A stretch of DNA of 56,532 nt from an uncultured Acetobacteraceae bacterium (GTDB lineage: Bacteria > Pseudomonadota > Alphaproteobacteria > Acetobacterales > Acetobacteraceae). Location of the stretch: NCBI GenBank assembly GCA_937873175.1, contig CALMVT010000434.1, positions 19,603 through 76,134 on the forward strand. The letters are read 5' to 3'. The translations under genes were made by a program, and so were the position numbers. Numbering within the stretch: the first letter of the stretch is position 1; each line of letters begins with the position of its first letter. The notes beneath the pieces were generated by a model that saw only the letters and a list, made by a program, of their open reading frames with translations, was not told where the DNA came from and searched no databases. Of the stretch, positions 54,933-56,532 are shown piece by piece.

Positions 54933-55748
54933 ATGCCGCGCGTGACCATCCTTGGCTGCGGCGGGTCAGCAGGTGTGCCGCAAGTTGGCGGGATTGACGG
55001 CCGCGGCGACTGGGGCGTATGCGACCCGGCCGAGCCGCGCAATCGCCGCACCCGATCCAGCATCGTCATCGAAAGCGACACGGGAGAGCGATTGCTGGTG
55101 GACACGTCGCCTGACATGCGCGGGCAACTATTGGCCTGCGGGGTGCCGCAGGTGGATGCGATCCTGTTTACGCATGCCCATGCGGATCATGTGCTCGGCA
55201 TCGATGATGTCCGCATTCTCAACCGCATCGTGAACCGGCCCATCGATGCGTTTGCCACAGCGCAGACCTTGGTGGAGCTGAACAAACGTTTTGACTATGC
55301 GTTCCAGCCGTGGAACCAGCCATACTTCTTTCGGCCGGTGCTTGCGCCGCGTGCCGTCGAGCCGGGGCAGACGGTCGAGACTGCGGGCCTACGGGTGCAG
55401 TTGTTCGAGCAGGATCATGGCTTCATGCCGACGCTCGGATTGCGCGTCGATGGGTTTGGCTATTCGACCGACGTTGCCGTTCTGGACGAGGCCGCATTTG
55501 CGGCGTTGGCCGGAGTGGACACCTGGGTTGTGGATTGCTTTCAGCGCCAGCCACACAAGACGCACGCGAATCTGGAGCAAGTGCTTCAATGGATCGAGCG
55601 CCTGCGTCCACGCCGGGTCGTACTGACGCACATGGGCTATGACATTGATTGGGCGTGGATGAAACAGCGTCTACCGTCGCATATCGAGCCGGCCTACGAT
55701 GGACTAGCTTTGGACATTCCTGCCTCTACACACTTTGACTTTCCATAA
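54933..55748 (+). CDS. MBL-fold metallo-hydrolase (PhnP-like)
   Basis: VTILGCGGSAGVPQVGG; SIVIESDTGERLLVDTSPDMRGQLL; FTHAHADHVLGIDDVR. Confidence 0.92.
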   Translation: MPRVTILGCGGSAGVPQVGGIDGRGDWGVCDPAEPRNRRTRSSIVIESDTGERLLVDTSPDMRGQLLACGVPQVDAILFTHAHADHVLGIDDVRILNRIVNRPIDAFATAQTLVELNKRFDYAFQPWNQPYFFRPVLAPRAVEPGQTVETAGLRVQLFEQDHGFMPTLGLRVDGFGYSTDVAVLDEAAFAALAGVDTWVVDCFQRQPHKTHANLEQVLQWIERLRPRRVVLTHMGYDIDWAWMKQRLPSHIEPAYDGLALDIPASTHFDFP

Positions 55749-55767
55749 TATGCATTATCGGTCTGAG

Positions 55768-55858
55768 GGGCAATATTCCGTCTGTTGCCGTTGGAACCAT
55801 TCTCGGGCGTTTTTCCGGCAACACCCCTCTTCGATAAAGGGCAATATCTCTGTTGCCG
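55768..55858. repeat. Pair of imperfect direct repeats GGGCAATAT..TGTTGCCG with an inverted copy of TGTTGCCG between them
   Basis: GGGCAATATTCCGTCTGTTGCCG (55768-55790), CGGCAACA (55816-55823), GGGCAATATCTCTGTTGCCG (55839-55858). Confidence 0.65.
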
Positions 55859-56228
55859 TCCCGGCACCCCCAAACTCGTTATTGAGGACCGGCGGTGAGA
55901 GGAGCGACCCAGCACTGACCCAGGTCAACGTCGAGCGGTTTTGCACAAAACGGTAGACACGCCGGTTATCGCCTGTTACAGGGCTCACCCATGAAGACTT
56001 TGAACCTCATACGCGGGCGCAGCTGAGACTTTCGCGCGTTACCGTGTCAGGCGGCAGTTCCGCCCCATAGTTCGGGTTCAGTTGATGATCCATCTCAGTT
56101 TCGTTCTCGCCGTGGCATTCATCGGTCGAGGCTCTCCTATATGCTCCGGTTGAGGTCGTCCCGGGCGTAAGGCCCTACAAAGCCAGCCAGGAAGACCTAT
56201 CCGGTAGCCGTACCTTCATGGTGCGGCC

Positions 56229-56532
56229 ATGAGCCGCGTCCGCGTCCATGGCCCGGAGCTTCCCCCGGCGTTGCAGGGTTGGCTCCTGGTCGACGAATTC
56301 GGCGTCCCTCGCTTCTGGGCCGCCGTCTGGCAGATCATGCGAGGTCCGCAGATCGCGGAATCGACGCTCGGTGCCAAGCTCTCGGCTGTTGAACGCTTGT
56401 ATGTGCATGCTGCCGATGTCTCCGGCATCAACTTAGACCGGGCGATCGCCGCGCTCGATCTCGAGGCGATCAAGGACGTTGACAAGCCCCCATTGAGTGG
56501 TCCGGGTGAAATGTTAGTGCAGCACGGCAGCC
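56229..56532 (+). CDS. Tyrosine-recombinase/site-specific integrase-like protein, N-terminal part, truncated by window edge
   Basis: Open frame to the edge: MSRVRVHGPELPPALQGWLLVDEFGVPRFWAAVWQIMRGPQIAESTLGAKLSAVERLYVHAADVSGINLDRAIAALDLEAIKDVDKPPLSGPGEMLVQHGS; resembles N-terminal SAM-like domains of mobile-element integrases; catalytic domain not in window. Confidence 0.5.
   Translation, partial: MSRVRVHGPELPPALQGWLLVDEFGVPRFWAAVWQIMRGPQIAESTLGAKLSAVERLYVHAADVSGINLDRAIAALDLEAIKDVDKPPLSGPGEMLVQHGS

Follow-up and report, generated by a model that had tools for sequence, protein, structure and literature searches.

Does the open reading frame at the right edge of this stretch of DNA mark the beginning of a mobile island and, if so, what kind of island is it and which target did it use? 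The window, by which we refer to the whole stretch analyzed (56,532 nucleotides, positions 19603-76134 of contig C434), ends with the last base of the contig (76134 bases) and therefore at a true contig end. The assembly it belongs to is a draft of 6.39 Mb in 624 contigs with a completeness of 99.4%.

Identification of an interrupted recombinase gene

The original prediction had placed a frame without stop codon at 56229, and this frame is real, extending from an ATG at 56229 to the end of the contig (101 codons). It had also been read as an integrase, which held for residues 1-83 but not for the sequence from 56480 to 56532, where the right end of an IS3-family element was found. The two features involved are:

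56229..56479, plus strand: 5' part of ginA, codons 1-83 of about 400, assigned by GinA homology and alignment of starts
56480..56532, minus strand: right end of an IS3-family element, comprising the terminal repeat TGACAAGCCCCCATTGAGTGGTCC and the last transposase codons (stop 56514-56516), assigned by matches to the ends of annotated IS3-family transposase genes

A profile search matched the ORF to GinA-type recombinases with E = 3.8e-19 (positions 1-85 of 406), and tblastn returned 42% identity (E = 5e-13) to Pseudomonas aeruginosa pBJ86. The start codon of the fragment aligned with the start of GinA homologues, while most alignments stopped at or before residue 84 of the ORF. Only residues 1-83 thus represent recombinase, and the last 18 residues of the 101-codon ORF do not, because position 56480 onward is the end of the IS3-family element. 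Searches with the 101 aa fragment gave no match in Pfam and nothing meaningful in NCBIfam, and the ginA N-terminus had no match among phage records. Judged by its homology, the fragment is the N-terminus of GinA, whose gene opens the ginABCD module (three recombinases) of GInt islands. The ginABCD layout is that of GInts as described by Bardaji et al. (2017, PMC5385486).

The IS insertion interrupts ginA at codon 84, with the body of the element located beyond the contig. The transposase C-terminus on the minus strand ends at a stop codon equivalent to that of the IS3-family matches. Since the 53 bases at 56480-56532 also end contig C376 (98% identity), contig C434 was evidently broken at a repeated IS. 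The same IS end is common to many plasmid IS copies, including those of Roseomonas and Acidiphilium plasmids, in keeping with Acetobacteraceae; the left inverted repeat was indistinct in the plasmid copies examined, and the window displays the right end only. Contig C376 was considered as the right half of the island and rejected, as a sugar ABC transporter locus lies beyond its IS. Due to the IS3-family insertion at codon 84, this copy of ginA cannot make GinA.

A probable chromosomal dif site at the left end of the island

The ginA fragment is preceded by a core block consisting of tmk-holB-metG-tatD-mbl, and the following features were located between the last gene of this block and ginA:

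54933..55748, plus strand: MBL-fold hydrolase gene that closes the core block (Pfam Lactamase_B_2, E = 2.6e-36)
55738..55765, minus strand: most likely dif, 28 bp with an 11-6-11 arrangement, serving also as island attL; reads CAGACCGATAATGCATATTATGGAAAGT in consensus orientation
55760..55859, plus strand: left end of the island, assigned by the same spacing in relatives and the repeat found there

The dif site is the chromosome dimer resolution site, where bacteria separate joined chromosomes. The 28-mer at 55738-55765 agreed with the dif of F. alni at 23/28 and with that of E. coli at 18/28 positions, compared to 20 for the best of 200 shuffled windows. This 28-bp 11-6-11 motif is single-copy in the genome, lies near the terminus and has KOPS-type GGGNAGGG motifs oriented towards it (8 to 0). 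Taken as a sequence assignment, 55738-55765 is most likely the chromosomal dif.

The mbl gene is conserved in relatives and its stop codon falls within dif. Same-genus relatives could be aligned to approximately the end of this gene and were divergent thereafter; two of the three (G108 and G017) kept dif, whereas the third (G163) was without it at that place. The last stretch common to the window, G108 and G017 is ACTTTCCATAATATGCATTATCGG. Three more members of the family (L044, L048 and L051) had a weaker dif-like site where the MBL gene ends. In several genera of the Acetobacteraceae (L042, L043, L044, L048 and L051) a dif or dif-like site is thus located right at the end of the MBL-fold gene, so that tmk-holB-metG-tatD-mbl seems to adjoin the replication terminus in them.

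Closer examination of the left end revealed TGTTGC at 55783-55788 (offset 45 from the dif start), an inverted GCAACA at 55818-55823 and a direct repeat TCTGTTGCCGT at 55781-55791 and 55849-55859. These are probable recombinase-binding repeats. The inverted GCAACA follows TGTTGC in many relatives as well, while G108 and G017 carry the same dif as the window without TGTTGC at that position. The distance from dif to ginA is 463 bp in the window versus mostly 60-290 bp elsewhere (396 in Oceanicaulis). No tRNA or known RNA gene was found as island target.

These features alter two earlier statements. The gene had been taken as the start of the island; it does mark the island edge, but the boundary itself is dif, about 490 bp before 56229. 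Nor is the gene the sole mobile-element signal, as had been thought, since the IS end and the dif-type attachment site at 55738-55765 flank the ginA fragment. Same-genus relatives diverge just after dif and therefore did not reveal an exact empty site for the element in the window. One of them (G017, locus L043) has a different coding region just after dif that reads, by eye, like a large DNA methyltransferase, which suggests a hotspot at dif in this genus.

Association of dif with ginA across homologues

The analysis was extended to 84 ginA homologues obtained from plasmids and a scan of about 85,000 genomes, in which the short fragment alone retrieved nothing and a full-length alignment retrieved the homologues; 72 of these had at least 250 bp of upstream sequence. 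A dif was called when a 28-mer within 500 bp of ginA agreed in at least 19 positions with the dif of E. coli or of F. alni. By this measure dif was present upstream of 33 of the 72 homologues, compared to 7 of 1440 shuffles and none of 72 control stretches inside the module. TGTTGC occurred at an offset of 44-46 from the dif start in 28 of the 33, matching the offset in the window. The dif-linked matches spanned alpha-, beta- and gammaproteobacteria and, more weakly, Acidobacteria. Another 28 of the 72 scored as having no dif, including a separate clade of eight GinA sequences that stands apart in the tree (support 100/99) and serves as internal contrast. The dif label was clustered on the GinA tree, yet did not form one clade. 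In all 24 genomes searched as a whole, the best dif match was the one next to ginA, and 23 contained one dif per genome (at most one mismatch).

The fixed spacing between dif and TGTTGC across many genera, the window included, bears on whether the fragment could be an ordinary integrase remnant that lies near dif by coincidence. Terminus regions do accumulate foreign DNA, and IS, transposase or integrase genes flank 14.2% of 161 dif sites (PMC2731167), but this spacing speaks against chance accumulation, as do attL and attR sites in register with empty sites, detailed below. We regard coincidence as very unlikely here; for the family as a whole it is already disfavoured.

Several variations were noted among these loci. 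X. floridensis (G598; C22:1364 and C40:483) was the sole genome of the 24 with two close dif copies, the second of which may mark another dif element. In Rhizobiales (L067, L072, L105, L119 and L136 as well as plasmid loci L015, L064 and L065) the island abuts the XerD half of dif, whereas the islands of beta- and gammaproteobacteria and that of the window are on the XerC side. In several plasmid loci (L061, L063, L064, L065 and L066), ISNCY-family transposase genes immediately precede ginA, in some of them between a dif-like site and ginA. The distance from the left-flank gene to dif ranged from less than 0.1 kb to more than 60 kb between Xanthomonas species, which shows variation on the opposite side of dif too.

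Modules, attachment sites and cargo of intact relatives

In intact homologous loci (L078, L085, L116 and others) the ginABCD products measure about 404, 510, 770 and 160 aa; across the homologues, the tandem genes after ginA encode a second recombinase (~510 aa), a larger protein (~640-780 aa) and a small one (~160 aa). This bears out the proposal that the fragment is the N-terminus of a tyrosine recombinase leading a multi-gene module, as its homologues are accompanied by partner recombinase genes in tandem. The C-terminal catalytic domain that had been named as a check was likewise present in the full-length homologues: PF00589 was detected in GinA and GinB, and weakly in one GinC, together with the R..HxxR..W..Y catalytic residues. 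As in described GInts, the homologous loci comprise three recombinase-type genes of rising size and a small fourth gene, and are inserted site-specifically with short imperfect direct repeats and the target intact on the ginA side.

In X. arboricola the crossover could be placed by comparing three sequences: ..ACATTATGCGAAATTGCGTATCGGG at the empty site of its closest sister genome, ..ACATTATGCGAAAAAGTGGTAC at the left end of the occupied site, and ..GTACCAAGATTGCGAAATTGCGTACCGGG at the opposite end, 24.9 kb away. TGCGAAA, common to these sites, is located within the outer XerC arm of dif. Likewise, the S. nitritireducens island is in register with a further empty site. As both comparisons place the crossover in this arm, we assign it to the outer XerC half; at the ginA end, dif consequently remains complete. 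Six islands end on the right with TACCAAGAT(T/C)GCG, which gives element sizes of 10.6 to 24.9 kb. For the islands of Pandoraea, Pseudomonas and Duganella, a search of 40 kb yielded no attR. Empty Xanthomonas sites were identical to the published X. campestris dif (PMC2731167), while the Afipia site was two bases off the published Bradyrhizobium dif.

Elements located at dif are usually IMEX (PMC5357621, PMC9765430), and XerCD-like hosts are universal here. The island could accordingly be an IMEX with a dif mimic that was integrated by the host XerCD at the centre of dif, its recombinase genes being incidental. This fits poorly, because IMEX leave dif-like sites at both ends and no second full dif was found within 40 kb in ten islands, a close second copy occurring in only one of 24 genomes. 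In addition, the overlap lies in the outer XerC arm rather than the 6-bp centre, and the gin module is present in all dif-linked islands. The relatives thus lack both dif-like sites at the two ends and a crossover in the dif centre, which makes this explanation very improbable.

According to PADLOC models applied to three dif-linked islands (L184, L196 and L198), the X. arboricola cargo includes a CBASS cyclase, TRIP13 and a type IIG restriction enzyme, that of Lysobacter antarcticus type I restriction-modification and Gabija, and that of Massilia rubra Gabija. This sample of ten proteins from three islands was picked for defence-like look and indicates possibility rather than frequency. Four contigs from four genera (L088, L092, L112 and L114; 6507-6521 bases) start ~130-140 bases before ginA and hold ginABC plus a small gene; possibly these are cargo-free elements in several copies.

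Fate of the copy in the window

The original prediction expected any accessory system to lie beyond 56532, an expectation that the rest of the genome did not support. Homology searches of the 99.4% complete assembly recovered no C-terminal part of ginA, no ginB and no ginC elsewhere; the ginA query recovered the window's own N-terminus as a control, whereas the ginB and ginC searches were without positive control in this genome. Integrases of the same genome were considered as the missing gin genes and rejected, their similarity being weak and at the domain level only. The window copy therefore consists of ginA in its first 83 codons with ginB and ginC unmatched in the assembly, and is classed as a remnant, not as a GInt, because of these missing matches and because its right end is not defined.

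The contig ends inside a repeated IS, so its continuation could sit on another contig, and cargo would not be recognisable by homology to gin genes. An intact island past the contig end, in which IS3 inserted recently and the remainder of ginA plus ginBCD and cargo are absent from the assembly, is nevertheless unlikely given the searches above, including those for ginB and ginC that had no positive control. The element is either a broken remnant or else an island hidden by the assembly gap.

Proposed integration mechanism and comparison with known systems

Our preferred explanation, which we hold to be very probable, is that a GInt-type island has integrated at the chromosomal dif and that its left end, with ginA now cut by an IS3 element, forms the right edge of the window. 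It is directly supported by the position and conservation of dif, the architecture of the left end, the ginA homology, the IS junction and the register of attR in two relatives. Against it stand that only the left end is seen in the window and its right end was not found, the longer dif-ginA distance, the homologues without dif and the XerD-half position in Rhizobiales.

Intact islands encode GinA, GinB, GinC and GinD, with GinA and GinB as the catalytic tyrosine recombinases. The Gin recombinases, and not XerCD, would join the att of the circular island (reconstructed for X. arboricola as ..GTACCAAGATTGCGAAAAAGTGGTAC..) to the outer XerC half of dif TTATGCGAA, with an overlap of about 6-7 nt. 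Because this cut would fall outside the 6-bp centre, the ginA end would retain the complete 28-bp dif and the far end a few bases. The retained dif could presumably still be used by the host XerCD and would thus stay functional after island integration. In this genome an IS3-family element has entered ginA at codon 84. In a model GInt, none of the four gin genes is dispensable (PMC5385486). The element in the window probably once had the full module.

The homologous loci resemble GInts in module order and sizes, catalytic GinA and GinB, the position of ginA at the end adjoining the target, an attL with the target intact, short imperfect repeats and variable cargo. They differ in target, the described ones being an ABC transporter gene, the ssb end and a ribonucleotide reductase gene, with dif unmentioned (PMC5385486); the window copy differs further in being a ginA fragment only. 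The chromosomal dif as target is shared with IMEX, which however use the host XerCD at the dif centre and have dif-like sites at both ends, while the islands described here have their own recombinases, an overlap in the outer XerC arm and one dif left. SE elements, RIT elements and Tn554-like transposons also contain several tyrosine recombinase genes in tandem, and SE and Tn554 share target specificity too. SEs form sequence clusters separate from GInts, and the three RIT recombinases are 315-410 aa and all catalytic (PMC10214605), in contrast to about 404/510/770/160 aa in the homologous modules, which accordingly fall outside the RIT definition.

Implications for the colonization of replication termini

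GInts are already known, and mobility genes near dif have already been counted (PMC2731167). In the literature searched, which left most subscription journals outside, a link between GInts and dif was not found described. Taken together, the loci probably represent a widespread GInt sub-family in Proteobacteria and Acidobacteria that relies on its own Gin recombinases, integrates in the outer half of dif, leaves a working dif and carries anti-phage defence at the terminus, distinct from Xer-exploiting elements.

Taken alone, this genome holds a broken remnant of moderate interest, and its value lies in the family it revealed. Previously, dif was known as a target of elements borrowing the host XerCD; if the interpretation is true, the islands would represent a second, independent way to colonize the replication terminus, with three recombinases of their own, a cut at the edge of dif and dif left intact. 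They could account for some of the integrase genes reported next to dif from 2009 onwards and can be sought by the signature of dif, 17 nt, TGTTGC and ginABCD. The family would also connect dif with the spread of CBASS, Gabija and restriction systems, and it raises a testable question, namely whether XerCD faces competition from Gin proteins at a shared half-site.
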